From Blautia pseudococcoides (GTDB lineage: Bacteria > Bacillota > Clostridia > Lachnospirales > Lachnospiraceae): a DNA stretch of 64,000 nt. The stretch is from positions 2,266,001-2,330,000 of the forward strand of contig NZ_CP015405.2 in assembly GCF_001689125.2 (NCBI RefSeq). The letters are read 5' to 3'. The position numbers were made by a program, and so were the translations under genes. Numbering within the stretch: the stretch's first letter is position 1; each line of letters starts with the position of its first letter. Positions 26,408 through 42,132 of this stretch are shown here, one piece after another. A model generated the notes under the pieces. It was not told the DNA's origin. It searched no databases and saw nothing but the letters and a program-made list of their open reading frames with translations.

Positions 26408-26515
26408 GTATCTTAACTCCTTTCAGCTGTCTGTATGATCACAGTATTTGCTGCTGCCCACTCTGTGACCGGCAGCACCATGTATCTGCTGTTTTTTTAT
26501 CATATCATATTTTAC

Positions 26516-26544: not shown

Positions 26545-26566
26545 AATGGCAAAGAAGGAGAAGCGT

Positions 26567-27490
26567 ATGTACTATTTTATCATCAATCCCCGCTCCCGTT
26601 CCGGCAAGGGGCAGGAAATCTGGGACAACGTAAAAAAGCGTCTGGATGAGGAAAACCTGGAATACGAGGCCTATTTTACCCAGCGGCAGGGACACGCCGC
26701 CGAGCTGGCACATCAGATAGCAGCCCTCTCTATCCCCTGTACATTGGTTGTTGTAGGCGGAGACGGCACAGCGAATGAAGTGGTAAACGGTCTTGTAAAA
26801 ACAGTGTACACCCATATCACCCTGGGCTATATTCCCACAGGCTCCGGCAATGATTTTGCCAGAGGCCTTGGGCTTACGAAAGATACTAAAAAAGCTGTGG
26901 AGCAGATCCTGGCTCCCGCATGTATTGAAAAGATGGATATTGGCATCGCACAGTCGGACAAAGAAAAGCGTTATTTTCTCATCAGTGCCGGCATTGGATT
27001 TGACGCCTCCATCTGTCATGAAGCTCTGCATTCCGGCCTCAAGGATCTTCTGAACAGATATGGCCTGGGCAAGCTTACATATGCGGCCATTGCCCTGAAA
27101 CAATTGTTTCTGTACCGCCCCTGCCCTGTGGATATCAGGCTGGACAAAAAAAGGATTTCCCGTTTTCCCCGCTGCTTTTTTGTTGCGGGCATGAATCTGA
27201 AATATGAGGGGGGAGGCTGTAAATTTTGTCCGGATGCAGATCACTCTGACGGCAAAATCCACATTTGTGTAGCCGGAAAACTCTCCAAACTGAAAATCCT
27301 CACCATGCTGCCCACAGCATTTATTGGGAAACACATATGGTTTAAAGGCATACAGATAGAACAGGGGCATGTGGTGGAAATCATCAGCCGGCGTCCTCTT
27401 CCTGTACACTGTGACGGGGAATCTTTTGGATTCAGGAGTTCCCTCTCCCTGAGAACAGCGCCGGAACAGATTTCTGTCATCACCGGATAG
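26567..27490 (+). CDS. Diacylglycerol/lipid kinase (YegS/DgkB family)
   Basis: A 307-residue cytosolic, membrane-associated kinase. The start ATG 26567 (AAGGAG upstream) gives the canonical opening MYYFIINPRSRSGKG. The nucleotide-binding motif VVVGGDGTANEVVNGL and IPTGSGNDFARGLGL follow, with the beta-sandwich domain and a late DGE motif (HCDGESFG). Family members phosphorylate diacylglycerol or related lipids using ATP. It heads a run of three lipid-related genes (kinase, GDPD, PAP2), consistent with phospholipid or lipoteichoic-acid turnover. Confidence 0.92.
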   Translation: MYYFIINPRSRSGKGQEIWDNVKKRLDEENLEYEAYFTQRQGHAAELAHQIAALSIPCTLVVVGGDGTANEVVNGLVKTVYTHITLGYIPTGSGNDFARGLGLTKDTKKAVEQILAPACIEKMDIGIAQSDKEKRYFLISAGIGFDASICHEALHSGLKDLLNRYGLGKLTYAAIALKQLFLYRPCPVDIRLDKKRISRFPRCFFVAGMNLKYEGGGCKFCPDADHSDGKIHICVAGKLSKLKILTMLPTAFIGKHIWFKGIQIEQGHVVEIISRRPLPVHCDGESFGFRSSLSLRTAPEQISVITG

Positions 27491-27508
27491 TTGAAAGAAG
27501 GTTAACTT

Positions 27509-28342
27509 ATGAAATCACTGCTGATAATGGCTGCCATTGTACTTCTCGGTTTTTTACTTTATTTTTACTGTATTATGCCGCGTTTTACAAGAAAATCCCA
27601 AACTCGGGCCTTTATGCACAGACTCTTTGCACATAGAGGATTATTTGATCCCAAAGAAGGCATTCCAGAGAACTCCATGCCCGCCTTTGAACGGGCAGTC
27701 CTGTGCGGATATCCCATTGAACTGGATGTTCAGGTTACAAAAGACAACAAGATCGTGGTTTTCCACGATTATACATTGGGCCGCATGTGCGGCATCGACC
27801 TGCCTCTGGAGACAAAGACTTATGAGGAACTGCAAAAGCTCTCTCTGCAGAACACCGGAGAAAAAATCCCTCTGTTTTCAGATGTACTGAAATTGGTGGA
27901 TGGCCGGGTTCCTTTACTGATCGAGATAAAACTTCACTCCCGCCACACATATCCCTGTGCTCTTGTGGATAAACTATTAGAGGGGTATAAAGGCAGTTAC
28001 TGTATTGAATCTTTTAATTCCCTGGCGCTTTTCTGGTACCGGCGCAACCGGCCCGGAGTGGTAAGAGGGCAGCTCTCCTCCAACCTGACAAGCCCGGTGG
28101 CTGAGGGCGGATATGTGCTGAGTTTTTTGGTAAAACACCTGCTCACCAACTGCATCGGACGACCCGACTTTATTGCCTACTGCTATAAGGACAGCCGCAA
28201 CCTGAGCTTCTGCCTGGTCCGCCATCTCTACAAAACCCCTGTTTTTGCCTGGACGCTGCGCACACCGGAGGCCTATGAAAAGTGTAAAAAGCGTTTTGAT
28301 TCCGTCATTTTTGACAGTTTTCTCCCACGTAAACAGGCATAA
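27509..28342 (+). CDS. Glycerophosphodiester phosphodiesterase
   Basis: A 277-residue protein with one N-terminal membrane helix (MAAIVLLGFLLYFYCIM) and a GDPD TIM-barrel. Catalytic signs are FAHRG (His, Arg), ENSMPAFERAV, IELDVQVTKDNKIVVFHD (metal-binding Glu/Asp and second His) and LLIEIK. It hydrolyses glycerophosphodiesters to glycerol-3-phosphate and an alcohol. The lipid kinase gene ends 18 bases upstream, so they are one operon. The released G3P could feed the Glp enzymes encoded at 44-47 kb, though that is inference. Confidence 0.92.
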   Translation: MKSLLIMAAIVLLGFLLYFYCIMPRFTRKSQTRAFMHRLFAHRGLFDPKEGIPENSMPAFERAVLCGYPIELDVQVTKDNKIVVFHDYTLGRMCGIDLPLETKTYEELQKLSLQNTGEKIPLFSDVLKLVDGRVPLLIEIKLHSRHTYPCALVDKLLEGYKGSYCIESFNSLALFWYRRNRPGVVRGQLSSNLTSPVAEGGYVLSFLVKHLLTNCIGRPDFIAYCYKDSRNLSFCLVRHLYKTPVFAWTLRTPEAYEKCKKRFDSVIFDSFLPRKQA

Positions 28343-28405
28343 CCGGACAGTTTTTTCAGAGTGTGAATTGGATGTGAAGCTTTTCTGAATTTACTGTAAA
28401 TCCCA

Positions 28406-28434
28406 TTGTTATCTTGATTTTCCTGTGCTATAAT
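28406..28434 (+). promoter_or_regulatory. Promoter of the PAP2 gene
   Basis: -35 TTGTTA (28406-28411) and -10 TATAAT (28429-28434), with a 17-base spacer, lie 46 bases before the ATG at 28480. Confidence 0.65.
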
Positions 28435-28479
28435 GGGCAGGATAAAGAAAGGCTTTGGCATCGAAAAGAAGGTGATTTT

Positions 28480-29127
28480 ATGAATCTGCTGAAAAAATAT
28501 AAACACACCTGGATCATCCCGGTATATGGTATTTTTTACCTTACAGCTTTCCGGTATCTGGAACAGCGCGATGTCCGGCCCCATATCATCCATATGAAGA
28601 TTGATGATTATATCCCGTTCTGTGAATATTTTATCGTCCCGTATCTGCTGTGGTTCGCCTACATCGCAGTCACTGTTTTGTACTTTTCTTTTTTTAATGA
28701 CAGTAAACGGGAATTTTACCAACTGATCTTTACCCTTGGAGTGGGTATGACACTGTTTCTCGTCATCTCCTACATTTACCCCAACGGGCAGGACCTGCGG
28801 CCCAAGCTTACCGGTGACAGCATCTTTATTGAACTGGTGAGACATTTATACCGGATCGACACTCCTACTAATATACTGCCCAGCATTCATGTATTCAATT
28901 CCGTGGCCTGCTGCACAGCAGTTTTCAAAAACGCAAAAGCAAGAAAGCATCCCGTACTGCTTGGCAGTACCCTGCTTCTGACCATACTTATCGTCATGGC
29001 TACTGTATTCTTAAAGCAGCATACACTCGTGGATGTGGTAGCAGCGTTTGCGCTGAATGTGTTCTGCTGCCAGATGTTCTACAAAGCACATCCGGCCCGG
29101 CAGAAACAACCCGCATTTGTAAAATGA
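28480..29127 (+). CDS. PAP2-superfamily membrane phosphatase
   Basis: A 215-residue polytopic protein with about six membrane helices. The PAP2 catalytic parts are recognisable as PSIHVFNSVACCTA (motif 2, Ser-His) and FLKQHTLVDVVAAFALN (motif 3, His-x3-Asp); the first motif is diverged (YIYPNGQDLRPKL). Relatives include AUR1-type lipid phosphotransferases and phosphatidate phosphatases. Start at ATG 28480 follows AGAAGGTG. Its original downstream terminator seems to have been split by the 10.8-kb insertion that begins at about 29.17 kb. Confidence 0.85.
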   Translation: MNLLKKYKHTWIIPVYGIFYLTAFRYLEQRDVRPHIIHMKIDDYIPFCEYFIVPYLLWFAYIAVTVLYFSFFNDSKREFYQLIFTLGVGMTLFLVISYIYPNGQDLRPKLTGDSIFIELVRHLYRIDTPTNILPSIHVFNSVACCTAVFKNAKARKHPVLLGSTLLLTILIVMATVFLKQHTLVDVVAAFALNVFCCQMFYKAHPARQKQPAFVK

Positions 29128-29138
29128 GGCCTTATGGC

Positions 29139-29185
29139 CCGGCATATAAAAAGGACGTTCCGCTTAGGCGGAAGCTCATAAGGAA
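29139..29185. repeat. Left inverted repeat / attL of the 10.8-kb element
   Basis: These 47 bases are matched at 42 of 47 positions by the reverse complement of 39980-40026. The outer 23 bases look like one arm of the host's bidirectional terminator. The inner part (GGCGG-N-AGCTCATAAGGAA) repeats at the right end. A GA dinucleotide at 29171-29172 recurs at the right junction (40005-40006), as expected for the crossover core of TndX/TnpX-type recombinases. Confidence 0.75.
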
Positions 29186-29222
29186 GTAAATGAAATTTCT
29201 GGTAGAACCGGCGTGGTGGAAA

Positions 29223-30611
29223 TCACGCCGGTTTTTCCGTACCCGTAGGCAGTTCCGGTTTTTGAAGTGGAATCCGAATCTTGCCTACATAAGTAAAATA
29301 AATTTCAATCGTCACATGCTTTCTTCCATCGATTTTCTTCGGATTATGGATGACGATTTTTTCAATCAATTCGTTGACTGTTGCAGCGTCAAGCTCCTGT
29401 ATATCGGAATACCGTTCGGCAAGTTGCAGAAAACGCTCTACATCAGAAACTTGTTCGGCTTCTTCTGTGATTTCACGTTCCAACACTTCGGAAAGCAGTC
29501 TGATTTCTTCCTGTTCGGTCTCATACTGTCCCGATAGCTTCTGGAAACGAAGGTCACTCAGTTTTCCTAAAACATTATCTTCATAAAGGCGCTGAATGAT
29601 TTTGTCCAAGTCCTCCATGCGCTTCTGTGCGCCGGAGAGAGCTTTTCGTTTCTGTGTAAGTTCTTCTTTCCGGCTGGCTTCATCTTGCATCAGCATTTCC
29701 TGTGTAAAATCATCCTTAAACAATCGAACATAGGTCAGAGTTCGTTGGACACATTCCAGTACTCGCTTATACAGCGTGGTCTCCCGGATATAATGAATCT
29801 GACAGGAACCGGTATTGCTTTTGTAATTGGAACAGACGAAATGGTTTTGTGAATCATCCTTGTAGCTGTGACAAGTGCAGTAGTATAGCTTTGCCCCGCA
29901 GTCAGCACAGCGGACAAGGCCGGAGAATATACTTGTCTTGCCTGTTTTGGTCGGTCTGCGTTTATTTTCCCGAAGAACCTGTACCCGTTCCCATTGTCCG
30001 TACTCGATAATTACTGGCTGCGTCCCCTCAAATATCCGCTGGTTTTCTTTTGGATTTTGCAGTCGCTTTTTAAATTTCAGGGATTTGGCGTAGGTCTTGA
30101 AGTTGACGGTACAGCCGGTATATTCCCTCCGTTCTAAAATACCGGAAACTGATTTCTGGCTCCAGCCATATAGATTATCCGGCATTGTCCAACCTTTCTG
30201 CCTTGCATGGTAGGCGGTAACAGTCAATATCTGTTCCTTTGTCAGTATTTTTGCTATCTGCATAGGTCCTTTCCCCGCAATACACAGGTCAAAGATACGC
30301 CGCACTACCTTTGCCGCTTCTTCATCCACAATCCATTTCTTTTTGTCCTGTGGGTCTTTCACATAACCGTAGGGCGGATTGCTGGCAAGGTGTTCCCCGG
30401 CTTCTCCTCGCATTTTGACAACCGCCCGGATTTTCTTGCTGGTGTCCTTTGTGTAATAATCGTTGAAAACGTTATTGAAAACGGCAAAATCATTTTCTCC
30501 TTTAGCACTGTCTACATCATCATTGATGGCGATAAATCGGACATCGTAGTACATTTTTGGTGCAAAATTACGGGGGCATTTTGAAAAGTTCACGAAAAAT
30601 TCATAATTCAC
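29223..30611 (-). pseudogene. Large serine recombinase (TndX/TnpX type), N-terminally truncated
   Basis: The 462-codon frame lacks the catalytic resolvase domain with the active Ser. Recognisable sequence begins at YYDVRFIAINDDVDSAKGENDF, the end of that domain. It continues with DTSKKIRAV, the recombinase domain (GYVKDPQDKKKWIVDEEAAKVVRRIF), the zinc-ribbon (GLVRCADCGAKLYYC; HFVCSNYK) and a coiled-coil with DUF4368-like C-terminus (VNELIEKIVIHNPKKID). Intact members are about 520-550 residues. Its place at the element end, with its stop 38 bases from the left repeat, is typical. It should bind but not cut DNA. Confidence 0.85.
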
Positions 30612-30694
30612 CCTGGCAGAGAGGGCAACCGAAAAATCCTTCCATTATTCCGTACATATTTTAGGAGAAAGTTGCCGTCTGTCCTGAGAAAATA

Positions 30695-30735
30695 CAAAAA
30701 AATTCACACCGTAGGTTTTGGCCTATGGTGCGAAT
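30695..30735 (-). terminator. Intrinsic terminator after the OmpR-type gene
   Basis: A 13-bp stem (30703-30715 with 30722-30734, two G-T type mismatches) is followed on the minus strand by seven T residues. It ends the cargo operon before the recombinase remnant. Confidence 0.8.
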
Positions 30736-31242
30736 CTATTGTAATGCAAATTTATATCCAATTCCGGTAGCGCTTTTGATATAATCAGGGTCATCCGGTC
30801 TGGTCTTTAACTTTTTCCGCAAGTTACTCACATGATTATTGATTGCTTTCCGGGAATAGTAGGTATAATCCTCATTCCAGACTAAATCCATGATAAGCTC
30901 ATAAGTAAACACTCGTTTCGGATTGCTGGCAAGTAAAAACAATATATCAAACTCTTTGGCAGTCAGACTTATTTCCTGTTTGTGGACTGTTACCAGACGA
31001 TGTTCCAAACAAATATATAAATCACCTTCTTGTATTTCAGTAAGAGGACTATCTTGCTGCCAGTTATATTTTGGTGGATTTATACCTGTATCAGCAGTTA
31101 ATACTATATCTCCAAAAAGATATTGTGCAAGTTCTTTTCGCTGTTTTTCATCAAGCAAGAGTGCTAATTTCTCACCAATCTGCGTATCTGTTCCGGATAA
31201 ATCGAATACAGCTAATTTCCCATGAAATCGCCTCACAATCAT
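30736..31242 (-). CDS. OmpR/PhoB-type winged-helix DNA-binding protein lacking a receiver domain
   Basis: The 168-residue protein has a C-terminal winged helix (about 75-168: LTAKEFDILFLLASNPKRVFTYELI; KAINNHVSNLRKKL; IKSATGIGYKF). Its N-terminal 70 residues (FHGKLAVFDLSGTDTQIGEKL) do not contain the Asp and Lys of a phospho-receiver. It may be a response regulator whose receiver was lost, or a stand-alone regulator of a kind common on Lachnospiraceae mobile elements. It lies last among the cargo genes and has its own terminator. Confidence 0.8.
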   Translation of the reverse strand: MIVRRFHGKLAVFDLSGTDTQIGEKLALLLDEKQRKELAQYLFGDIVLTADTGINPPKYNWQQDSPLTEIQEGDLYICLEHRLVTVHKQEISLTAKEFDILFLLASNPKRVFTYELIMDLVWNEDYTYYSRKAINNHVSNLRKKLKTRPDDPDYIKSATGIGYKFALQ

Positions 31243-31315
31243 TTATTATTTCCGCTGCACGATGTTTTTTGCCGTTGCACAGCAGATTCTCAAATGTTAG
31301 GCTGCTTGATGCCGC

Positions 31316-32662
31316 TTAAATTACTTTACATTGTTTCCACTTGTTTTTCTTGAATCGAATCCAAAATATAATACCGCGGATTATCCAGTCGAGGCACATT
31401 GCGTAGGCAATACCTACAACGCCTAAGTTCAGCGTAATACCAAACAATACTGAAAAAACAAGCCGGACACCGACTGTTGTAAAAAGCGATATCGCCGTTG
31501 TAAATTTCACATCTCCAGTTGCTCGTAGACCTTTCCCGAAAGGATCGGCAAATGGAAACGCTACCGCATTGCATATATTATGAATCAACACAAGAACTAT
31601 TACCAGATGCTTTGTTTCCTCGGCTAACGAATAGAAATGCATCAGTATCGGCGTTACGGCGAAAATCAACCCATTCCAAACGAGCGAAAACAGCAGGGTT
31701 ATTTTCAAAAGTTTCCTGAAATAATAATCTGCCGCCTGCGTGTCACCAGCTCCCATACATTGTCCAATCACAGTAATAAATACAGGTCCCATCGTGACGC
31801 ATACAAGAGCAGCCATTCCCCAAATACTCTGTGCAATTCCGTTTGCTGCGATCTGATATGTTCCAAATAATGCCACAACACTGCTCAAAGCCACCTTTAC
31901 AAGTTGAAAAACACCGCTTTCCACGCCGTTTGGAATCGCGATCCGCAGCATCTGGTACTGTAATTTTTTCTTCCAGCTCAAAATCCATTTTACATGGTAC
32001 TGAACAGGATTCTTTCCTCCAAAACACAGAATGGTAATGGCAATAGCTGAAAATGTTCTTGAAATGAACGATGGGTAAGCAACTCCCGCAACGCCTGCCT
32101 TCAGTACAAATACACCGATTAAATTGCCAGCGATATTGATTGTATTAGCAATCAACGAAATATACATGGTCGTGCTGGTCTTGCCAAAGCTGCGGTAGAG
32201 AGCCGCCCCTGCGTTGTAGATTGCCAGAGCCGGATAGGAATAGGCTGAAATACGAAGATAGGTCACACAAGCCGCCATCACATCCTGCTCCACCTGCCCA
32301 AACATCATTCTCATTAAAGGTCTGTTGATTAACAGAATCAGTACGGCAGTAACAATAGAAAACAGCACGGAGGAGGTGAATAACTGACTCGAAGCTTCAC
32401 CTGCTATTTTCGGTTCGTTTCTGCCGATGTACTGACTGATTACCACTGCTCCGCCAGAGGCCAGAGCAGTAAACAAATAAATGAAAATGGTATTAAACGA
32501 GTTGACAAGGGATACCCCGGATACTGCCGCCTCTCCGACAAAACTAACGATGAAAATGTCAGCAATCCCCACCAGCATCGTAAGCAGCTGCTCCATAAAC
32601 AATGGTAAAACTAAATTTTTTAAATCTCGGTTGGTAAATAACGATTCTGACTGATTCATCAT
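31316..32662 (-). CDS. MATE family efflux transporter (element cargo)
   Basis: A 448-residue twelve-helix MATE transporter. NLVLPLFMEQLLTMLVGIADIFIVSFVG opens the first bundle, ASGGAVVISQYIGRNEPK marks the first loop, and MGPVFITVIGQCMGAGDTQAADYY the equivalent of the second half. The start codon overlaps the alcohol dehydrogenase stop (TAATG), so the genes are translationally coupled. In this operon it may export toxic carbonyls, flavins or conjugates, but the substrate is not readable from sequence. Confidence 0.9.
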   Translation of the reverse strand: MMNQSESLFTNRDLKNLVLPLFMEQLLTMLVGIADIFIVSFVGEAAVSGVSLVNSFNTIFIYLFTALASGGAVVISQYIGRNEPKIAGEASSQLFTSSVLFSIVTAVLILLINRPLMRMMFGQVEQDVMAACVTYLRISAYSYPALAIYNAGAALYRSFGKTSTTMYISLIANTINIAGNLIGVFVLKAGVAGVAYPSFISRTFSAIAITILCFGGKNPVQYHVKWILSWKKKLQYQMLRIAIPNGVESGVFQLVKVALSSVVALFGTYQIAANGIAQSIWGMAALVCVTMGPVFITVIGQCMGAGDTQAADYYFRKLLKITLLFSLVWNGLIFAVTPILMHFYSLAEETKHLVIVLVLIHNICNAVAFPFADPFGKGLRATGDVKFTTAISLFTTVGVRLVFSVLFGITLNLGVVGIAYAMCLDWIIRGIIFWIRFKKNKWKQCKVI

Positions 32663-33828
32663 TACATACTCTGTTTCAAAATATCTACGATTTCATTGTG
32701 ACCGAGAACTTTATATCCCCCCTCCATTGGGAAAGAGCCTTTTGCAATGCCGTCAAGCATATCCTCGGTTACGCCTAGGTCACTGATATTCATAACAAGT
32801 CCCAGCCCCTTCATCCAGGCTTCCATGCGGTCAAGTCCTTCCGAAGCGATTTCCTCATCGGTCTTGCCGTCCGAAGCAACATCCCACACATTTATGGCAA
32901 ACCTTTTAAATTTATTGAGTCCATATGGGCAGATATAACGATAATATGCCATCGAGACAGCAGACAGCGTCATGCCGTGAGCAGCATCGGTATAAGCGCC
33001 AATCGACTGACCAATCATATGCACCATCCAGTCGGTGGATTTCCCTTTGGCAATCAGTGTGTTCAATGCCCAGGTTGCTGTCCACATAATGTTGCTGCGA
33101 GCCTCATAATCATGCGGATTTTTAATGGCAATCCGGCTTGCGTGAATCAGCGATTTCATCAGTCCCTCTGAAATGTAATCAGAAGTGTTGTCATCTTCCC
33201 CGGAAAAATATTGTTCGGTGATATGATTCATAATGTCATAGAATCCTGCAATCATCTGATGCCTAGGAAATGTAAAGGTAAACGCAGGATTCAGGAGGGA
33301 GAACTTCGGAAATACATTTTCACCGAACACATGACCGATTTTCAGTTTCTGCTCATGGTTGGTGATAACAGCACCACCGTTCATCTCGGAACCTGTGCCT
33401 ACCATAGTCAGTACACAACCTACAGGGATGATCCTATTATCTACATCCTCCATGCGAAGATAGTATTTTTCCCACGGATCATCCTCGCAATAAGCAGAAA
33501 CGGAAACCGCTTTTGCATAATCGCAGACAGAACCGCCACCAACAGCAAGAATCAAATCAATCCCGTTTTCTTTTGCAAGTTTGCAACCCTCATACAGTTT
33601 CTGAACGGTAGGATTTGGCATAACACCGGAATCTTCAAAAACTGTTTTACCGTTTGCTTTCAAAATACTGATAATCTGTTCATAAATCCCGTTTTTCTTA
33701 ATGGAGCCGCCGCCATAAGTCAGCATGATATTTTTACCGTACTTCGGCAGTTCCTCGTTTAGATAGTTAAGCGAATCCTCTCCAAAATAGAGTTTGGTCG
33801 GATTGCAATAATCAAAATTTCCTAACAT
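32662..33828 (-). CDS. Iron-containing alcohol dehydrogenase (YqhD/butanol dehydrogenase type)
   Basis: A 388-residue group III alcohol dehydrogenase. MLGNFDYCNPTKLYFGE opens the NAD(P) domain, with GGGSVCDYAKAV the dinucleotide loop and TMVGTGSEMNGGAVI the family signature. Iron ligands are seen in PRHQMIAGFYDIMNHITE (Asp, His), SIGAYTDAAHGMTLS and later His positions. YqhD relatives reduce short and lipid-derived aldehydes with NADPH. It follows the CMD-cupin gene by ten bases with AGGAGG. Aldehyde detoxification is the likely role in this cassette. Confidence 0.92.
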   Translation of the reverse strand: MLGNFDYCNPTKLYFGEDSLNYLNEELPKYGKNIMLTYGGGSIKKNGIYEQIISILKANGKTVFEDSGVMPNPTVQKLYEGCKLAKENGIDLILAVGGGSVCDYAKAVSVSAYCEDDPWEKYYLRMEDVDNRIIPVGCVLTMVGTGSEMNGGAVITNHEQKLKIGHVFGENVFPKFSLLNPAFTFTFPRHQMIAGFYDIMNHITEQYFSGEDDNTSDYISEGLMKSLIHASRIAIKNPHDYEARSNIMWTATWALNTLIAKGKSTDWMVHMIGQSIGAYTDAAHGMTLSAVSMAYYRYICPYGLNKFKRFAINVWDVASDGKTDEEIASEGLDRMEAWMKGLGLVMNISDLGVTEDMLDGIAKGSFPMEGGYKVLGHNEIVDILKQSM

Positions 33829-33838
33829 GATATTCCTC

Positions 33839-34612
33839 CTATTTCAACTGTTCATATTCGTCATCAGATACAGACTCACACCATTCGTTGCTGTTTCCCT
33901 CGCCGGGAACTTCAACTGCAATATGGCTGAACCAGCTATCTGCTTTTGCTCCGTGCCAGTGTTTTACTTCGGGAGGAATGGTAATAATCATCCCTGGCGT
34001 AAGGCTGACAGCCTCCTTGCCTTCCTCCTGATACCAACCCTCACCGGCAATACAGATGAGAACCTGACCGCCGCCGTTTTTTGCGTGATGGATATGCCAG
34101 TTATTGCGGCATCCGGGTTCAAAAGTCACATTAGCAAAAAGAGCGGGATGTTCATCGTCGGTTTTGGCAAGAGGAGCAAGGTAACTCTGCCCAATAAAAT
34201 ACTGTGCATATCCGTCATTGGGCGAACCAATCGGAAATACCATTTCGGCAGCGTGTTTGGACTTAGCGCTGTCATCAGACGGTTTCTCATTCCACACCTC
34301 TTTTGCAAGCCGGAACACCGCCCACGCCTTCGGCCAGCCTGCATAGAAGGCCGCATGGGTGATGATCTCTGCAATTTCCGTTTTGGTGATGCCGTTTTTC
34401 TTTGCTTCCTGTAAGTGGAAGGTCAGTGAACTGTCGGTAAGACCTTGTGCCATGAGAGCCACCACCGTTATAAGGCTGCGGTCACGCAGAGAGAGTTTTT
34501 CATTTCTCGACCATACTTCGCCGAATAATATATCATCATTCAGTTCTGCAAATTTCGGAGCAAATTCTCCAAGTTGGTCTCTTCCAGCTGTTTGTTTTAT
34601 TTTCATCATCAT
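33839..34612 (-). CDS. Carboxymuconolactone decarboxylase (CMD)-cupin fusion protein
   Basis: A 257-residue two-domain protein. Residues about 15-105 are a CMD/AhpD-like helical domain (LSLRDRSLITVVALMAQGLTD; EIAEIITHAAFYAGWPKAW). CMD relatives usually carry a catalytic CxxC, absent here. Residues about 140-250 are a cupin with metal ligands in CRNNWHIHHAKNGGGQVLI and PPEVKHWHGAKAD. Such fusions are common beside flavodoxin and YqhD-type genes. It overlaps the monooxygenase stop by four bases (ATGA). The reaction is unknown. Confidence 0.9.
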   Translation of the reverse strand: MMMKIKQTAGRDQLGEFAPKFAELNDDILFGEVWSRNEKLSLRDRSLITVVALMAQGLTDSSLTFHLQEAKKNGITKTEIAEIITHAAFYAGWPKAWAVFRLAKEVWNEKPSDDSAKSKHAAEMVFPIGSPNDGYAQYFIGQSYLAPLAKTDDEHPALFANVTFEPGCRNNWHIHHAKNGGGQVLICIAGEGWYQEEGKEAVSLTPGMIITIPPEVKHWHGAKADSWFSHIAVEVPGEGNSNEWCESVSDDEYEQLK

Positions 34613-34896
34613 TCTCCTTGATAGCGTTCTACCTTCATCTTTAATTTGTATTTTTCCCGAAGTACAGCAATTTGCTTCATCATATCTGTTTTGTGGTGAA
34701 AATCAAGCGCCTCCTGATTTTTCCACTTATCAATCAACAATATCGTTTCTTCATGGTCTACCGGGAAAAAATATTCGTATCCGAGGTTTCCTTCCTCCTG
34801 TCGAATTCTATCCACAAGACCACTCTCGGTCATTTCTTTTGCAAATGCCCTTGCCGAGCCGTCTTTGCCGGTATAATAGATATTAATTACAAGCAT
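34609..34896 (-). CDS. Antibiotic biosynthesis monooxygenase (ABM) / quinol monooxygenase family protein
   Basis: A 95-residue ferredoxin-like alpha/beta-barrel protein of usual ABM length, starting at ATG 34896 behind GAGGAGG. Family marks are LVINIYYTGKDGSARAFAKEM, GNLGYEYFFPVDHEETILLIDKW, and KNQEALDFHHKTDMMKQIA. YgiN-type members act as cofactor-light quinol monooxygenases and are often placed in quinone or electrophile stress operons. It overlaps the CMD-cupin gene. Confidence 0.88.
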   Translation of the reverse strand: MLVINIYYTGKDGSARAFAKEMTESGLVDRIRQEEGNLGYEYFFPVDHEETILLIDKWKNQEALDFHHKTDMMKQIAVLREKYKLKMKVERYQGE

Positions 34897-34914
34897 CTCT
34901 ATCCTCCTCGTCAA

Positions 34915-35397
34915 CTAAAGACCTAATTTTTCTGCCCATGATACCAGATCCTGTTTTGATAAAGAACCATTCAATATTTTACCGGGCATCAACACCGCTC
35001 CCGGACAGCTTGGTTCAAGGGAAGCGTTTGTTTTTCCCATGCCGCTACCGCCAGATGTTGCAAACGGAATGATTTTCTTACCCGTAAAATCATAGCTTTC
35101 CAGGAAAGTGTTGATGATCTTCGGTGCAACATACCACCAGATAGGAAAGCCGACAAAGACAGTTCCATACTGTTCCATGTTCGCAAGTTTCACCTTGATT
35201 GCTGGGCGGCAATTTGAATCGTTCATTTCAATGGAACTTCTGCTGTTTTTATCTGTCCAGTTCAAATCCGCCGAAGTATATATCTGCTCCGGTTTAATTT
35301 CAAAAAGATCGGCGTCCACTGCTTCAGCAAGTTTTTCCGCTACCTTTGCGGTTACACCGCTTGCAGAAAAATAAGCTACTAAAATTTTTTTGCTCAT
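34915..35397 (-). CDS. Flavodoxin (cytoplasmic)
   Basis: A 160-residue FMN-binding flavodoxin starting at ATG 35397 behind GGAGG. The phosphate loop is ILVAYFSASGVTAKVAEKL (about 4-22), and the isoalloxazine loops are FVGFPIWWYVAPKIINTFLE and FATSGGSGMG. There is no signal peptide, so it acts in the cytosol as an electron carrier or NAD(P)H-linked reductase partner. It is strikingly similar to the lipoprotein flavodoxin at 36105-36785 (shared SRSxIEMND and NMEQY blocks), which indicates duplication within the cassette. Confidence 0.92.
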   Translation of the reverse strand: MSKKILVAYFSASGVTAKVAEKLAEAVDADLFEIKPEQIYTSADLNWTDKNSRSSIEMNDSNCRPAIKVKLANMEQYGTVFVGFPIWWYVAPKIINTFLESYDFTGKKIIPFATSGGSGMGKTNASLEPSCPGAVLMPGKILNGSLSKQDLVSWAEKLGL

Positions 35398-35427
35398 GAT
35401 AAAATCCTCCATATTTCATTTAATTTA

Positions 35428-36084
35428 TTACGTCACCTTTGTGACGTAATAACCAACAAAAACCCAAAAGCCCATCATTGCCGCATATTCTGAAAACACA
35501 GACACAGCACTTTTTTCAAAATTGAAAAAAACGAACTGATTTTGAAAAAACATATAGGACGGAATATCTGCACCGATAAAGCAGAATAATCCATATCCCG
35601 CAATAGCAACAGTGGCTATCCTCGCAATCCACATAGATGTTTTGGGTATAGTTTTTCCTTTCATTAATCTGCGAACCTTACCTAAAATCATTCCCCAGTG
35701 AAGACCTGCGTGAAGACTCATCAGCACGAATCCCCAATAGGAAGCGACAAGGTGCATGGCTCTTGCCGTTGCTATCGGGCCACCCTGAACAAAGGAAAAT
35801 ACATGACGAGATAACACAATTCCGCTGAATCCAAGGCAAAGCATAGAAACAAGAGCGCCCATATTGATGAGTGTCTGCATTATTCGCAAGGGAGTATATC
35901 TACCCCTGAACAAATGCCCATACCATTTCATATTCAGAACATTATGCAGCAGAAAGAGTACAAGCATTCCGACACCGAACCACTCGTGAAGTTCCTGCCC
36001 GATGATTTGATATGTCATTAGGCAAAGCAGCAGCACCGTCATCAACAAATCAACGCATATTTTTATTTTCTGCTTTTGTTTCAT
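35428..36084 (-). CDS. DUF4405 membrane protein (cytochrome b561-like)
   Basis: The 218-residue product has about five to six membrane helices. It carries intramembrane histidines in QELHEWFGVGMLVLFLLHNVLN, RAMHLVASYWGFVLMSLHAGLHW and the C-terminal helices, suitable for binding two haems as in b-type cytochromes. I prefer ATG 36084; ATG 36108, which overlaps the lipoprotein stop (ATGA), is also possible. It is encoded between an exported and a cytosolic flavodoxin, so transmembrane electron transfer is an attractive inference. Haem binding is not proven. Confidence 0.82.
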   Translation of the reverse strand: MKQKQKIKICVDLLMTVLLLCLMTYQIIGQELHEWFGVGMLVLFLLHNVLNMKWYGHLFRGRYTPLRIMQTLINMGALVSMLCLGFSGIVLSRHVFSFVQGGPIATARAMHLVASYWGFVLMSLHAGLHWGMILGKVRRLMKGKTIPKTSMWIARIATVAIAGYGLFCFIGADIPSYMFFQNQFVFFNFEKSAVSVFSEYAAMMGFWVFVGYYVTKVT

Positions 36085-36104
36085 AATCGGTTCGTCCTTT
36101 CCTA

Positions 36105-36785
36105 TCATTTATCCAGTCCGAGACTGTTTACCCATTCCATAACCGTATCCTGAGAATCACTGCCGTTCAGGCGCTGGCCGTCTAGCCATTCGGCATTACT
36201 TGTCAGTTTTTCCAAATTTGACGCACTGGAACCTATACCGCTGCCACCGGAGGTGCAGAACGGTACAATTGTTTTACCGGAAAAATCGTAACTTTCCATA
36301 AAGGTGCTGACAATTCTCGGCGCATCATACCACCAAATCGGATATCCGATAAAGACCACATCATACTGCTCCATATTCTCTACGGAACCGGAAATATCAG
36401 GCCGGGCATTTGGATCGTTCATTTCAATCGTGCTGCGGCTATCGTTATCGTTCCAATCCAAATCGGCTGATGAATAAGGCTGCTCCGGCACAATCTCATA
36501 AAGCTCTGCGTTTAATCCATTTGCAATATGCTTTGCCACGCCTTCTGTCGTGCCTGTAGCAGAAAAATATGCTACCAATACTTTTAAAGATTCATCTTCG
36601 TTATCCGGTGTGTTGCTTGAATCAGTCGGTGCAGAGGATTCGTTATTCATCGCATCTGCCGAAGAACTGTTTTCAGCTGGGGGCTGTTCTGTCGATGACT
36701 GCCCGTTTTGATCCGTATTTCCAGAACAGGCCGCAAGTCCTATCACCATAAGTAACGAGAGTAAAATAGCTGTTATTTTTTTCAT
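36105..36785 (-). CDS. Flavodoxin-domain lipoprotein (extracytoplasmic)
   Basis: Starting at ATG 36785 (GGAGG upstream), the 226-residue precursor has a signal peptide ending in the lipobox LAAC (about 17-20), so it should be lipid-anchored outside the cell. A Ser/Asn/Gln-rich linker of about 45 residues leads to a complete flavodoxin domain (VLVAYFSATGTTEGVAKHI; FIGYPIWWYDAPRI; FCTSGGSGIG). FMN outside the membrane usually implies covalent or loaded flavin and an electron source, for which the adjacent DUF4405 protein is the natural candidate. Confidence 0.9.
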   Translation of the reverse strand: MKKITAILLSLLMVIGLAACSGNTDQNGQSSTEQPPAENSSSADAMNNESSAPTDSSNTPDNEDESLKVLVAYFSATGTTEGVAKHIANGLNAELYEIVPEQPYSSADLDWNDNDSRSTIEMNDPNARPDISGSVENMEQYDVVFIGYPIWWYDAPRIVSTFMESYDFSGKTIVPFCTSGGSGIGSSASNLEKLTSNAEWLDGQRLNGSDSQDTVMEWVNSLGLDK

Positions 36786-36816
36786 GATGAATACCTCCAA
36801 ATTTTTATTTTATGTT

Positions 36817-37578
36817 TTATTCTGCCAGAGCAAAGGTAATCTGAACGCTGCCAGATAGGTCATCAAACACGGAAAGGTCGGAAGTAACCTTACCAATCGG
36901 AATGACATCCACAGAAAGATTGGGATTGTCGGTCTGTGCATAAAAGATTGCCATATTATGATGGGCTTCGCAGTAGGTAATGTTACCGTTTTCAAAGGTT
37001 TTTTGACCGCCTTCCAGATGTTGGGGATAAAAATCGATACCGCCGTAATATTCTCTGCCGCCGTATCCCACCATAGAAATCGTCAACGGAAAATATGTCT
37101 TTATTTCTTCGGCAAGCACTGTGTTATACAGTATGCCATCTAAAACAACATCTCCCACGGTGATTTTAATGGCCGTTTCACCGTTTTCAGCAGAGTTCTC
37201 AGTTTTTTTCGTTATACCAATGGAGTTCAGCCAATTTGTTACGGTATCTTGCGCCGAAGGAACATCCTTTGCCTCAATAGCAAGGCCGTCAAGTGTTTTT
37301 CCTGCTTTGCTTGCTTCTGCAATCGTTGTATAGCTTCCACCTGCACCGTAACCGTCATGGGTACAGAAAGGAATTACCGTCTTACCCGTCAAGTCATATT
37401 CGTTCAGAAAAGACAGCACTGCTTGCGGTACATCGGTTGCCCACACAGGATAGCCGATAAAAACAGTATCATACTTTGAAATATCCAAATCACTGTCTTT
37501 TAATTCCGGCAGAATATTTTGCTGCATTTCATTGTGGTTCACATCACGGTTTATACCGAATCCACAGCCCGCTTTCAC
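36817..37578 (-). pseudogene. 5'-truncated flavodoxin fused to a cyclophilin-like domain
   Basis: Homology begins just past the DHFR-like gene stop at 37544. It covers the second half of a flavodoxin (SKYDTVFIGYPVWATDVPQAV; FCTHDGYGAGGSY) followed by a cyclophilin-like domain (IKITVGDVVLDGILYNTVLAEEI; TISMVGYGGREYYGG). The phosphate-binding loop and any signal sequence are missing. The frame extends upstream only by running into the DHFR gene in another frame. A deletion that joined the two genes explains this. Even if translated, it should not bind FMN well. Confidence 0.75.
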
Positions 37579-38254
37579 CCAAACGGTCTACGCTCTGCAA
37601 TTTGAATTCCATCGGCAGATTGCTTTCTAAATAATCCGCTTTCTCAAAAAGTGTTACTGTGTTTGAGTTACCGTCCGCTACAGGAGCTACAACCAAACTT
37701 AATTCGTCCATTAAGCCTTCATTCATAAATGAGCCATTCAGATATCCGCCGCCTTCTAACAGCAGTTTATTGATTCCGAATACTGATTTTAATTTCTCCG
37801 TCAGCAGCTTGCAGTCAATTTGCTTTTCACCTACAAAGATATAGGAAATTCCAAGTTTTCTAAGGTAGGCAAGGTATGCGTCTGACACCTGCTCGGTCAG
37901 TGCCTCAATGATGTGTGCAGGCGGGCGCTTTGCATATCCGTGGATATTATTTTCTTTCCATCCGAGTTTACCGGAAGGATCAACCGCAACTACATAAATG
38001 TCTGCATTTTCATTGGCGATGTAGTCTGTGTGAGGGATTTTCTCTGCCGGTTCATGAAGCTCCGGCTTTTCATAAAAGGTAAAGTTGTCATCCATTGTGA
38101 CTCTGCCGCACATCCAAGCATCGGCTTCAAATTCATCATGAATACGATCGTATTCCGCATTCATATCATAGGCGGTTTTTGTGTCCATGTACTCTCCTAT
38201 GATTTTTCCGTCCAATGCCACCATCATGTGGCAGATAATATGTGGTCTGTTCAT
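37544..38254 (-). CDS. Dihydrofolate reductase/RibD C-terminal family protein
   Basis: A 236-residue protein of the RibD-C fold, which uses NADPH to reduce pterin or riboflavin-pathway intermediates. Signs are RPHIICHMMVALDGKI at the start, DAWMCGRVTMDDN, LGISYIFVGEKQIDCKLL, and LLLEGGGYLNGSFMNEGLMDELSLVVAP. Paralogues of this kind are frequent and mostly not in folate or riboflavin synthesis. It overlaps the MerR gene by four bases (ATGA), so they are coupled. Its 3' end abuts the truncated flavodoxin. Confidence 0.88.
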   Translation of the reverse strand: MNRPHIICHMMVALDGKIIGEYMDTKTAYDMNAEYDRIHDEFEADAWMCGRVTMDDNFTFYEKPELHEPAEKIPHTDYIANENADIYVVAVDPSGKLGWKENNIHGYAKRPPAHIIEALTEQVSDAYLAYLRKLGISYIFVGEKQIDCKLLTEKLKSVFGINKLLLEGGGYLNGSFMNEGLMDELSLVVAPVADGNSNTVTLFEKADYLESNLPMEFKLQSVDRLGESGLWIRYKP

Positions 38255-38604
38255 TTGATTGCCCCTTTCTTTATTTCATCGATCATAAAATCGAGTTCAT
38301 CCAAAGATTGCTGTTTTTCATGAATGTCATCCAACAATTTAAATCGCTGCTTTCGGAGGATTTTAATTTGTTCCTCTTTGCTGCTTGTCTTGTTCCCAAT
38401 CAGGTTTAAATATGTTTTCAGCGTATCCATATTCAACCCGGATTTTAGTAAAGCATGAATCAACCCTATCCTGCGAAAATCGGATTCCGTATAGTCAGGC
38501 ACTCCGCCAGTGAGCGTCCTATGCTCCAAAAGACCGTTTTCTTCGTAAAAATTAAGTTTATCCATACTGATATGAAATCTGCGACTGGCTTCATTCAGAG
38601 TCAT
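38251..38604 (-). CDS. MerR family transcriptional regulator
   Basis: A 117-residue regulator with an N-terminal MerR winged helix (TLNEASRRFHISMDKLNFYEENGLL; YTESDFRRIGLIHALLKSG) and a dimerising coiled-coil (KEEQIKILRKQRFKLLDDIHEKQQ). There is no C-terminal metal- or drug-binding domain beyond the coil. It is coupled to the DHFR-like gene. Together with the LysR protein it probably sets expression of the cargo operon. Confidence 0.88.
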   Translation of the reverse strand: MTLNEASRRFHISMDKLNFYEENGLLEHRTLTGGVPDYTESDFRRIGLIHALLKSGLNMDTLKTYLNLIGNKTSSKEEQIKILRKQRFKLLDDIHEKQQSLDELDFMIDEIKKGAIK

Positions 38605-38697
38605 CTATATCCTCCTTTTTATGCAAAAAAGTAAGTGCCGTCAGAGAAATACATTCTCTTAACTGCACTTACATTATAAATCTCATTTTGCTTTATA

Positions 38698-39603
38698 TCA
38701 AATACTTAGTTTTAATGCCTTACTCATACCTAAAAGGCATTGCGCTTGTTCGATAAATTTTGTCGCTGCCGGACTGAACGGTTGACCACGCTTCCATGCC
38801 AGGACACTGGTTGCCGACAATTCCGGGGATAATGGTCTATAAATAATTTTGCTCTTATCCCAAAATGGAATTGCGCCTTCGACTACCAGAGAGTACGCTA
38901 ATCCTTGACTTACCATAATAGAAGCATTGGTACTTAAATTACTGGTAAACAGCACATTAAGGTTTTCAAAATAATTTCCGAACCAGCTTGCAAGCTCGCT
39001 CTGTACCTTTAGTCGGCGGGGAAGAATTAAGGGAACATCTGATAAGTCTTTTGCGGTAACAGATTTCTTGAATGCCATCGGATCATCCGGGCGCATGACA
39101 ACTACCCATTTTTCTTTTATCTGCATCCGTACAAAATCATACTTTTCTATATCAATCGGTTCCAGAAGCAGTCCAACATCAATCAGTCCTTTGTCCATCT
39201 GCTCCTTTACAATATCTGCAGTAGCCGTGAAAATATCAAAAGTAACTCTTGGATATTTATCATGAAAGACTTTAAATAGTTCAGGAAGCAGTTGTACAGA
39301 GGCAATCTCACCGCAGCCGATTGTAATTTTTCCCTCAATTTGTTCTTCCTGTTCCACAAGCTCTTTTTCTGTTTTGTCCACAAGCTGTAAAATTTCTTCG
39401 GCACGGCGGCGAAGTAAAATGCCTTCGTTTGTCAGTGTGATTTTTCGTGTACCTCGGTTAAACAGTTTTACACCCACTTCTTCTTCCATTTGCGACAATT
39501 GTCTGCTTAAAGTCGGTTGTGTAATATGAAGCACCTCGGATGCTTTTGTAATGCTTTCTTCCCGCACTACGGTAAGAAAATAACGAAGAACTCTGATTTC
39601 CAT
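38698..39603 (-). CDS. LysR family transcriptional regulator
   Basis: A 301-residue LTTR starting at ATG 39603 (GGAGG six bases upstream). The N-terminal HTH is MEIRVLRYFLTVVREESITKA, then VLHITQPTLSRQLSQMEEEVG. The effector domain (KITIGCGEIASVQLLPELFKVF; GLIDVGLLLEPIDIEKYDF) is full length. It is the promoter-distal-most upstream gene of the minus-strand cargo, in the same direction. It probably senses a small aldehyde, quinone or redox signal, though that is guesswork from its targets. Confidence 0.92.
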   Translation of the reverse strand: MEIRVLRYFLTVVREESITKASEVLHITQPTLSRQLSQMEEEVGVKLFNRGTRKITLTNEGILLRRRAEEILQLVDKTEKELVEQEEQIEGKITIGCGEIASVQLLPELFKVFHDKYPRVTFDIFTATADIVKEQMDKGLIDVGLLLEPIDIEKYDFVRMQIKEKWVVVMRPDDPMAFKKSVTAKDLSDVPLILPRRLKVQSELASWFGNYFENLNVLFTSNLSTNASIMVSQGLAYSLVVEGAIPFWDKSKIIYRPLSPELSATSVLAWKRGQPFSPAATKFIEQAQCLLGMSKALKLSI

Positions 39604-39979
39604 ATGTAGCCTCCTCACAGTAATCCCATGCTTAACAAACATATTATATCTATTTTATGCCTGATAGGCAATACTCTCTTGGAGTGGGAAGTCTGCTCAT
39701 CAAGTTTTCTAAAACTACTGGCAAGCAATGCAAACTTCCACAAGTTTGCGTATTTTCACAGATTGTTCACAAATGACAATCTGTAAAAAAGCTTGTTGGT
39801 GACATATCCCCAAACCCCTGAGATCACCACCTGCGGTGACGGCTGCGCGTTCTGTGAACGCTAAGAAAATCAAAAAACAACATTCCTAACATGAAAAAAC
39901 TCTATGCGAAAGAATTCTCAATCACATAGAGTTTTTAATTTTTCCGTCTACCTGGCATAACTCATAATTTTTCTAATGT
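39604..39979. other. Non-coding right end of the element
   Basis: There is no gene here. The stretch has two neighbouring hairpins (arms 39730-39737/39742-39749 and 39758-39766/39776-39784) and a perfect 12-bp terminator at 39895-39936. Such hairpins near an element end could be remains of recombination or transfer sites, or leader structure of the LysR gene. Confidence 0.5.
39895..39936. terminator. Intrinsic terminator inside the element's right end
   Basis: A perfect 12-bp stem (39895-39906 with 39925-39936) has A-tract and T-tract flanks, so it would stop transcription in both directions and insulate the cargo. Confidence 0.75.
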
Positions 39980-40026
39980 TTCCTTATGAGCTACCGCCTT
40001 TTGGGAACGTCCTTTTTATATGCCGG
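39980..40026. repeat. Right inverted repeat / attR of the 10.8-kb element
   Basis: This is the reverse complement of the left repeat (29139-29185) at 42 of 47 positions. The outer 23 bases (40004-40026) would pair with 29139-29161 to form one terminator hairpin if the element were removed. Confidence 0.75.
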
Positions 40027-40058
40027 CATTGGCTGTCCGGTATACCCGGACAGACGCC

Positions 40059-41075
40059 TTAGTTAAACCCATAAAATTTCTGCACTACTTTATAAATCGC
40101 CACAGAAATATTTCTCCCGCTCCATCCCGGCAGGTTCACACTTCTGCCAAGGATGCCCAGGCGGAGCTTTCTGTAAATATGGATATCCTCATTTCTCAAA
40201 TATTTCCACAAATCTTTTTTCTTCTCCAGGTTCTCCTCTGTCCCGGAGCGTATCAGCATGATGGAGGATACTGCAGTGATAATGTCCAAGTACCTCAAAA
40301 GATACTGCCGCAGGTGCTTGTCACCGATCCTCTTTCCCGCCACGGAATCAATCATGAGACGGTTCACTAAAAGCTGCTGGTCAATCCTGCGAATCATAAT
40401 ATCCTCATGAACGGACTGGTCCTCCCTGCCGATAAAATACCGGTAAAAATTCACATCCATATAGTACATGGTCTTCACTGAGGGAAGGGGCTGGTAGACA
40501 AACAGGTTGTCCACATAAAAGGTGTGTTTCGGCAGTTCCAGGCCGCACTCTCTGAGCAGTCCGGTACGATAGATCACGGAATGCATCAGAATGTATTTCC
40601 CCACCGGCATTTTGCTGATCTCCTCCCAGGTAAAAATCTTTCCCTGGGGCAGGTATTTCTTATAACGCATGACTTTCTTCCGTCTGGCGCCCTGTTTTTC
40701 ATAGACAAAGTTGCTGATCATCATATCCAGGGTCTGTGGCCCGCCAACAATCTCTGAGAGCTTTGTCAGGATCGCTTCATAGGCCTCCTTGTTCACCCAG
40801 TCATCGCTGTCCACCACTTTAAAAAAAATTCCGGTTGCGTTTCGCAGCCCTGTGTTCACGGCCTCCCCATGGCCGCCGTTCTCCTGGTGAATGGCTTTCA
40901 CGATGCCGGGATATCTGGCAGCATAATCGTCTGCAATTTTCGCCGTGTCATCCACGGACCCGTCATCTACGATCAAAATCTCCACCTGCTCCCCGCCTTC
41001 CAACAGGGAATCCACGCATTTCTCCATATATGCCTGGGAATTATAACAGGGAACTGCAACGGACAATAATTTCAT
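40059..41075 (-). CDS. Glycosyltransferase family 2
   Basis: A 338-residue GT-A enzyme starting at ATG 41075 (AGGAGG nine bases upstream). The opening LLSVAVPCYNSQAYMEKCVDSLL and the motifs ILIVDDGSVDDTAKI and FFKVVDSDDWVNKEAYEAIL hold the nucleotide-sugar and metal-binding Asp residues (DDG, DSDD). There is no membrane helix. Acceptor and sugar are unknown. It is the last gene of the long minus-strand operon, four bases after mutY. Confidence 0.9.
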   Translation of the reverse strand: MKLLSVAVPCYNSQAYMEKCVDSLLEGGEQVEILIVDDGSVDDTAKIADDYAARYPGIVKAIHQENGGHGEAVNTGLRNATGIFFKVVDSDDWVNKEAYEAILTKLSEIVGGPQTLDMMISNFVYEKQGARRKKVMRYKKYLPQGKIFTWEEISKMPVGKYILMHSVIYRTGLLRECGLELPKHTFYVDNLFVYQPLPSVKTMYYMDVNFYRYFIGREDQSVHEDIMIRRIDQQLLVNRLMIDSVAGKRIGDKHLRQYLLRYLDIITAVSSIMLIRSGTEENLEKKKDLWKYLRNEDIHIYRKLRLGILGRSVNLPGWSGRNISVAIYKVVQKFYGFN

Positions 41076-41079
41076 TGGA

Positions 41080-42132
41080 TTAGTCCTCCTCAATATATTT
41101 TCTATATGCGGAAAAAGCGGAGGGAATCGGGTATTTTCCCTTCGACTCTTTTTTATTGATAAAAAGCAGGCTTCCTGCCTTTTTCTCCTCTGTGGAAGCA
41201 ACCTTTACCACATATCCTTTCATATGCCACTCCACATGTGAAAAAATATGTTTTGCTTCCCCGGCGGCCCTTATGTGCAGGGGCATGAGTTTTAATTCCT
41301 CCACTGCCTTTAACACTTCCTCCTGGGTAAGCCAGCCTTCCATATTGGGAAATTCATACAAACCTGCCAACAGCCCTTTATCCGGACGCTTGCAAATAGC
41401 ATATTCCTGTCCGTTTTGTATGAGCAGGACTGTCTTTTCCTCAATCCGGCGCTGTTTTTTCGCCGCTTTTTTGGGATAATCCAGAACCGTGCCGTGAGCC
41501 CGGGCACTGCACAGATGACGTACGGGACAGACATCACATTTTGCCATACCGTTCGGTATACACACCGTAGCCCCCAGCTCCATGAGGCTCTGATTAAAGG
41601 CCCCCGGCCGGTCCTCTGGCATGACAGCTTCCAATTCCTGCTCCACGCGCCGCTTTACAGACTGCTTTAGGATATCCTCCCCGTTTTCTGTGATACGGGA
41701 AATGACACGCAGTACATTGCCGTCCACGGCCGGCTTTTTCAGACCAAAGGCAATGGAGGAGACAGCGCCTGCGGTGTAGCTGCCAATACCGGGAAGCGCC
41801 AAGATCTTTTCATAATCCGGGGGGATATTCCCGCCGTATTCTTCGACGATCTCTTTTGCTGCCTTCTGCATATTTTTCACACGATTATAATAGCCCAAAC
41901 CCTCCCACAATTTCAAGAGTTTATTTTCCGGGCAGGCCGCCAAATCCCGGGTTCCGGGAAGTTCCGCGAGAAACCGCCGGTAATAGTCCTTCACAGCCTC
42001 CACCCTGGTCTGCTGCAGCATGATCTCCGACACCCAAACATGATACGGGGTTGGTTCCCTCCGCCAGGGCAGATCCCGCTTGTTCTTCTCATACCAGGAA
42101 AGCAAAGGCTCTGTTATCTGTTCCAGTTTCAT
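41080..42132 (-). CDS. mutY: A/G-specific adenine glycosylase
   Basis: A 350-residue base-excision enzyme that removes A opposite 8-oxoG. Seen in order: the catalytic-domain WVSEIMLQQTRVEAV (with the Glu), helix-hairpin-helix LPGIGSYTAGAVSSIAFG, catalytic Asp in VDGNVLRVISR, the 4Fe-4S cluster CIPNGMAKCDVCPVRHLC (C-x6-C-x2-C-x5-C), and a NUDIX-like C-terminal domain (KRPDKGLLAGLYEFPN). Start ATG 42132 has GGAGG and overlaps the sfsA stop. Confidence 0.95.
   Translation of the reverse strand: MKLEQITEPLLSWYEKNKRDLPWRREPTPYHVWVSEIMLQQTRVEAVKDYYRRFLAELPGTRDLAACPENKLLKLWEGLGYYNRVKNMQKAAKEIVEEYGGNIPPDYEKILALPGIGSYTAGAVSSIAFGLKKPAVDGNVLRVISRITENGEDILKQSVKRRVEQELEAVMPEDRPGAFNQSLMELGATVCIPNGMAKCDVCPVRHLCSARAHGTVLDYPKKAAKKQRRIEEKTVLLIQNGQEYAICKRPDKGLLAGLYEFPNMEGWLTQEEVLKAVEELKLMPLHIRAAGEAKHIFSHVEWHMKGYVVKVASTEEKKAGSLLFINKKESKGKYPIPSAFSAYRKYIEED

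Follow-up and report, generated by a model that had tools for sequence, protein, structure and literature searches.

What kind of sequence did a mobile element enter, and at which dinucleotide, when it came to lie between two convergent genes of Blautia pseudococcoides? The question is raised by a window of 64,000 nt (NZ_CP015405.2, 2,266,001-2,330,000 of the forward strand; all coordinates below are positions in this window), in which the 47 bases at 29139-29185 recur in inverted orientation at 39980-40026 with 42 of 47 matches. Between these places lies an element with the remnant of a large serine recombinase (LSR) at its left end. An earlier note on this DNA had seen here a serine-recombinase element that split a bidirectional terminator by means of a GA crossover core. 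The inverted repeat, the recombinase remnant and the convergence of the flanking genes (Table 1) were all found as it described them, and the splitting of a terminator-like hairpin was borne out as well; the GA core was not. With a probability of roughly 0.83, the window element is a decayed member of a family of DUF4368-type LSR elements, which land mostly at the tips of terminator-like hairpins.

The empty site and the crossover dinucleotide

The left neighbour gene was matched at 96% and 94% in two genomes of the same genus (G005 and G009, respectively), both of which are devoid of the element. In each of them the stop codon of the left gene is directly followed by an uninterrupted hairpin, complete with A and T tracts, and then by the right neighbour gene. 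The empty-site sequence is GGACGTTCCGCTTTTGGAACGTCC in G005 and GGACACTCCGCTTTTGGAATGTCC in G009; both consist of a GC-rich hairpin and a subsequent T tract, which is the pattern by which intrinsic terminators are recognized. A stem-loop at the same place was also seen by eye in many other members of the genus. There is practically no doubt that the element inserted into a terminator-like hairpin, and the comparison with relatives lacking the element, proposed in the earlier note, gave the intact hairpin that it had expected.

Since the outer arms of the repeat agree on either side with the G005 locus, which is undisturbed, they are host sequence. The 47-base repeat is thus made of two joined parts: the outer ~22 bases are the arms of the host hairpin, and the inner 20 bases are the terminal inverted repeat of the element, AGGCGGWAGCTCATAAGGAA. 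One could suppose instead that no integration into a terminator took place, the end palindromes having arisen by rearrangement or being the element's own ends only; the truncated recombinase would suit this, and a repeat of 42/47 could stem from one palindromic end that was copied. The match of the outer arms to G005 and the other copies described below, which have different outer arms and a similar inner repeat, speak against such an origin; it is refuted by the empty sites, and its probability is close to nil. Dispersed palindromes, which the earlier note had considered as a refutation, are not the case here either: the segment 29100-29250 has no third place in its own genome (one contig of 5.13 Mb, E <= 0.001) and so is not a dispersed palindrome there.

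Joined at TT (29164-29165 with 40000-40001), the flanks reproduce the 44 bases of the G005 empty site, CATATAAAAAGGACGTTCCGCTTTTGGAACGTCCTTTTTATATG, with one mismatch, whereas a join at GA yields 46 bases that differ from it by two mismatches and a 2-base gap. With G009 as the reference, the TT join again needs no gap and the GA join needs the same one. The better fit of the TT join to these sequences makes TT at the hairpin tip the most likely crossover. Removal of the segment between GA 29171-29172 and GA 40005-40006 does leave an uninterrupted hairpin, as had been claimed, but removal from TT to TT does likewise, and the relatives favour TT. The joined stem given in the earlier note, GGACGTTCCGC-TTAG-GCGGAACGTCC, is a hybrid of one target arm (TTCCGC) and the similar-looking element end (GCGGAA), unlike the real empty sites. 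GA is the crossover dinucleotide of TnpX and TndX. An enzyme of the TndX/TnpX kind that recombines at a GA core located at the loop base would agree with GGAA being common to both junctions and with the 11-bp GC-rich stem obtained by joining there; it is disfavoured by the mismatches and the gap against G005, by the same gap against G009 and by most family members, which can be parsed with AA at the crossover, and is very improbable.

A further hairpin is present at the left junction (29158-29173: TTCCGCCTAAGCGGAA, then CGTCCTTTTT), because the target arm and the element end both carry CCGC. A terminator scan of the window region lists this hybrid hairpin, for transcripts leaving the element, together with the element's own stem-loop near the recombinase end.

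Ends, targets and internal stem-loops of the family

A scan of the genome collection for relatives of the recombinase gave 29 loci. The near end of the family is seen in 22 of them: the motif CTTCCTTATG stands shortly beyond the recombinase gene and is followed by foreign sequence resembling the 3' half of a terminator. The remaining seven loci are L069, which has lost its near end, L083, L085 and L088-L091. After the pattern had been stated, three draws of genomes were searched for more ends, and the end motif was matched in 14/391 (class), 17/397 (family) and 20/395 (order). A good part of these matches is due to chance, and element ends were told apart by the preceding stem-loop, partly by eye. 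Altogether 38 element ends were compared (L068, L160, L163 and L262-L265 included), each with different flanks, i.e. at many unrelated target sites. The search for the same end sequence in other genomes, likewise suggested by the earlier note, thus led to copies adjoining terminator-like halves of differing sequence.

In 37 of the 38 ends, TTT is found at a distance of 11-24 bases beyond the recombinase end (background 0.20); TTTT is found within 11-26 bases beyond the end in 33 of them (background 0.089). TTT is present in 14/15 ends found after the pattern was stated; chance matches of the end motif without an element have it in 5/19 cases, plus 1/7 further ones. Not counted among the ends were L166 (a far-type end), L153 (T tract present, no recombinase or family stem-loop seen), L087b (an end-motif match with a different continuation) and L156, L171 and L173, which repeat the window element, L065 and L072. 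In virus contigs all seven end-motif matches had no recombinase match and were taken as chance. Plasmids gave no match to the left end of the element, and phage records contained only relatives below 60% identity.

Both ends were found for 16 copies of 1.9 to 30.7 kb, namely the window element, three copies (L078, L179, L180) first found by complementarity and twelve found by terminal repeat. The only far end of L087 is unconvincing and lies where the L087 flank is repeated in tandem; none was found for L072 and L076, the contig ended first for L168 and L175, and L262, with a possible far end by complementarity alone, was left out of the 16. According to the parse, AA (TT on the other strand) is located at the junction in 14 of the 16 rebuilt targets. 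Clear hairpins were rebuilt in 12 of the 16, and the fold z is -3.4 or lower in 11/15 rebuilt sites. L265, which was found last and by its repeat, gives a 23-bp palindrome with dG of -28.3. Two further copies of the L087 flank (GGGGACAGGTACTTTTT), tandem and inverted, lie at a distance of about 36 kb (L146/L147), so that such terminator-like sequences may be dispersed repeats there.

The pairing of the two arms was compared for 13 sites (that of the window element and those of the twelve copies found by terminal repeat); L078, L179 and L180 were left out of this and of the matched test below, as their far ends had first been found via complementarity. Arms of the same site pair with a mean of 11.46, as compared with 6.61 for 156 mismatched pairs. 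The window site had originally been noticed for its repeat, and the tests were also made with it omitted: the means are then 10.50 (12 sites) and 6.48 (132 mismatched pairs). The excess was reached in 0/20,000 permutations both with and without the window site, and same-site pairs lie above every mismatched pair in 6/13 and 5/12 cases, respectively. The tendency of the family to lie in terminator-like hairpins is well supported.

The elements also bring stem-loops of their own. In a survey of 15 elements (L265 left out), a GC-rich stem-loop lies 35-43 bases inside the recombinase end in 15/15, and a second one is placed 59-69 bases inside the far end in 14/15, in most cases flanked on either side by A and T tracts. 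The T tract of the near stem-loop for incoming transcription is clear in the window but not in every relative. The far stem-loop of the window is unlisted by the terminator scan, which takes loops of 3-8 only. These stem-loops are probably replacement terminators or insulators, in the way that a terminator near one end insulates Tn916 according to passages of PMC11658703.

Several observations weigh against landing at terminator-like hairpins as a general rule. One end of the 38, L264, has no TTT; L068 (fits CT) and L179 (fits TT) do not agree with an AA core, and the cores of all sites other than that of the window element are a matter of parsing without an empty relative. A hairpin is lacking at two of the 16 sites, L064 and L066, both situated in long open frames. 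The open-frame measure is rough; a frame of 658 bases crosses the insertion site of the window too. One flank of L064 (11388-11924) matches Beta-lactamase2, and the element seems to interrupt such a gene; the flank of L066 matched no Pfam family. The L065 site folds on one strand only and with G-U pairs, and that of L074 is bulged, with a fold z of -0.9. Several inner stems of the elements are short or bulged (L074, L077, L079). Finally, the terminator scan gave 13 sites in total against 9.8 +- 2.8 in shuffles, which is not clearly above.

Distant relatives behave differently. In five (L083, L088, L089, L090, L091) of six distant LSR loci of 35-47% identity, a tRNA gene follows the recombinase match at a distance of 163-168 bases, so that landing in terminators does not hold for all relatives. 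Four of these tRNA-linked loci end in the palindrome ATCGAGTGTTCATAAGG...CCTTATGAACACTCGAT, which has CATAAGG in common with the family's terminal repeat; perhaps they represent a sister group.

Tracts or stems as the recognized feature

The profile of 45 half sites contains T at positions 12-20 from the AA core and little else. The recombinase probably reads A-tract - AA - T-tract DNA. How far stems are in excess beyond this motif depends on the background chosen. In loose backgrounds an inner stem of score 7 or more is found in 1-2.5% of sites, and the hairpin excess then looked about 20-fold. The tract-matched background (1.2 Mb of six genomes, outside open reading frames, ORFs) is different: an inner stem scoring at least 7 is already present in 12 of its 55 sites with a tract score of 10 or more. 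Against it 6/13 stems were seen and 2.13 expected (P = 0.0098), or 5/12 and 1.82 without the window (P = 0.0226). Hairpin sensing as a proven property was dropped on account of this shrinkage. Since hairpins are fairly common among good tract matches in any case, the support for direct stem sensing is modest.

About even odds are given to an explanation in which only the A-tract - AA - T-tract motif is read, insertions in genes are lost and good intergenic tracts often happen to be terminators. Besides the 12/55 background sites, it is in line with the two open-frame insertions, L064 and L066, which carry tracts alone, and with the motif published for Cp36 in human cells (PMC10083194), which needs no terminator. 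The excess of stems over the tract-matched background, with or without the window site, speaks against it. The same excess, modest as it is, together with the site-specific pairing of arms, would be expected if the recombinase, or supercoiling or transcription arrest at the site, favoured a cruciform-capable palindrome, as proposed for IS1272. The joint of the element's own ends is a palindrome as well (as seen at the GA junction; by eye, the joint at TT is even longer). Yet hairpin-free sites are used, the stem excess comes from 12-13 sites, and serine recombinases act on duplex half-sites; structure sensing of this sort appears unlikely.

Returning to landing at hairpin tips, the following course of events may be proposed. 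The recombinase would join the palindromic end joint of the element to the target at an AA/TT dinucleotide that is preceded by an A tract and followed by a T tract, each at a distance of about 12 bases. The natural copies are found mostly at the tip of a terminator-like hairpin, which they split, one arm being left at each end of the element. The stem-loops inside both ends would then probably restore termination and insulate the cargo. A broader version is held tentatively, as having rather less than an even chance: the family may home to bidirectional intrinsic terminators as a class, by reading the duplex A tract, the AA-centred palindrome and the T tract with a contribution of the stem, split them at the tip and replace the lost function by the carried pair of terminators; the A-rich/AA/T-rich motif of Cp36-type tools would then be an imprint of terminator homing.

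The decayed element and related systems

The recombinase ORF of the window contains the Pfam domains Recombinase, Zn-ribbon and DUF4368 and has no N-terminal Resolvase domain, whereas a full-length relative from the L078 element (546 aa) has it. Because the catalytic domain is gone, the window copy is unable to move by its own enzyme. Among the recombinase frames of 15 relatives several are cut short or broken, including those of L065, L066, L068 and L070. No match to solved structures was obtained at E <= 0.001. In the window (29223-31242) and in L070 (7340-8794), the winged-helix gene directly abuts the N-terminally cut recombinase, the two small genes that separate them in full elements being absent; in L070 they share a single open frame. 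The cargo may become immobile through repeated losses of the catalytic domain.

In a comparison of gene content among 14 elements (L180 and L265 left out), the winged-helix gene has relatives at 58-81% in 10 of the 13 other elements, and several cargo genes of the window have relatives in L065, L066, L079 and L082. The recurring redox cargo (flavodoxins, Fe-ADH, CMD/cupin and RibD-like; window 31316-39642) is reminiscent of an exchangeable metabolic cassette. The genes of the L078 element include those of ABC transporters and of a solute-binding protein, as well as a Cys-rich VLP gene. No relaxase and no transfer or mobilisation gene was recognized among ten proteins of the window, where the element is a decayed copy, and eight of the L078 element. 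No Rfam match at gathering score was found in 26000-43000.

Table 1. Position of the element, its ends and the neighbouring genes in the window.
Feature	Position	Strand	Basis or remark
PAP2-type gene (name from the earlier note)	28414..29127	+	ORF; left convergent neighbour; the empty site was located through its relatives
Left half of the split hairpin, arm CGGCATATAAAAAGGACGTTCCGC	29140..29163		Pairs with 40002-40026 once flanks are joined; intact in G005 and G009
Left copy of TT crossover core	29164..29165		TT versus GA parse against G005
Element, 10,836 bp including one core copy	29166..40001		Ends from the two empty sites and other family members
Left terminal inverted repeat AGGCGGAAGCTCATAAGGAA	29166..29185		Repeat and family comparison
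Element's own stem-loop near recombinase end	29206..29236		T tract for transcription entering from the left; in terminator scan
Large serine recombinase remnant	29223..30611	-	Homology begins at residue 22 (about 30548); no catalytic N-terminal domain
Winged-helix (Trans_reg_C) gene	30736..31242	-	Pfam; relatives in other elements
Cargo genes	31316..39642	-	MATE transporter, Fe-ADH, CMD/cupin, ABM monooxygenase, flavodoxins, RibD-like, MerR-like (by eye) and LysR regulators; domain scan of ORFs other than 34915-35412, 35428-36108 and 38251-38604
Element's own bidirectional terminator-like stem-loop, far end	39894..39936		A6-stem-loop-stem-T5, long loop
Right terminal inverted repeat TTCCTTATGAGCTACCGCCT	39980..39999		Repeat and family comparison
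Right copy of TT crossover core	40000..40001		Empty-site comparison
Right half of the split hairpin (TGGGAACGTCCTTTTTATATGCCGG)	40002..40026		Pairs with the left half; empty-site comparison
GT2-type gene (name from the earlier note)	40059..41201	-	ORF; right convergent neighbour; 3' end directly after the hairpin in G005 and G009

Among the closest published counterparts is a clade of multi-targeting LSRs, 63% of which have DUF4368 and which includes TndX-like enzymes, as described in passages of Durrant et al. 2022 (PMC10083194). In the same passages, one integrase has a TT core with A/T-enriched sides, and the motif seen in human cells for Cp36, a tested member of the DUF4368-rich clade, is A-rich, AA, T-rich; the main text does not use the words terminator, hairpin or palindrom. 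The window recombinase resembles this clade in its DUF4368, Recombinase and Zn-ribbon domains, in the unrelated targets and in the TT/AA core with an A-rich 5' and a T-rich 3' side, a likeness of domains, targets and core. It is unlike the clade as published (AT-rich motifs, relaxed specificity) in that the targets are mostly terminator-like hairpins and stem-loops are present inside both ends. Tn4451 and Tn5397 (TnpX/TndX), according to passages of PMC5704250, share with the present family a large serine recombinase, a 2-bp core and low target specificity. The family differs from them by its TT/AA core in place of GA, and no transfer gene was recognized among the scanned proteins.

The transposase of IS1272 is of the DDE type, and the recombinase of Tn916 is a tyrosine recombinase. 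IS1272 targets inverted repeats or potential stem-loops of differing sequence and replaces the stem-loop, as stated in passages of PMC5678879, the main text of which does not contain the word terminator. The targets of the present family are likewise stem-loops of differing sequence, but here a serine recombinase, not a transposase, splits the stem-loop, and both target arms are kept. Tn916 favours intergenic sites and, within a palindromic motif, stretches rich in T and A, and has a six-base AT-rich spacer; no targeting of terminators is mentioned in the passages of PMC12084037 and PMC11658703 concerned. Palindromic targets with A/T tracts and a terminator-like structure near an end are common to Tn916 and the present family, which is distinguished by its serine recombinase, 2-bp core and terminator-like targets. 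No report of serine recombinases inserting into terminators or otherwise linked to them stood among the titles and opening lines of abstracts listed by the literature search, much subscription literature being outside it; in this respect the earlier note, which knew of no such strategy, was not contradicted.

Landing of the family mostly at terminator-like hairpins would offer a natural explanation for the motif targeted by a clade of recombinases, members of which have been employed for writing DNA into human cells. It also names intrinsic terminators, which are common in bacterial genomes, as a class of low-damage landing sites for mobile DNA, and low damage may be the reason for landing there. 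The stem-loops that the element brings inside both its ends suggest how the breakage of a terminator could remain harmless.

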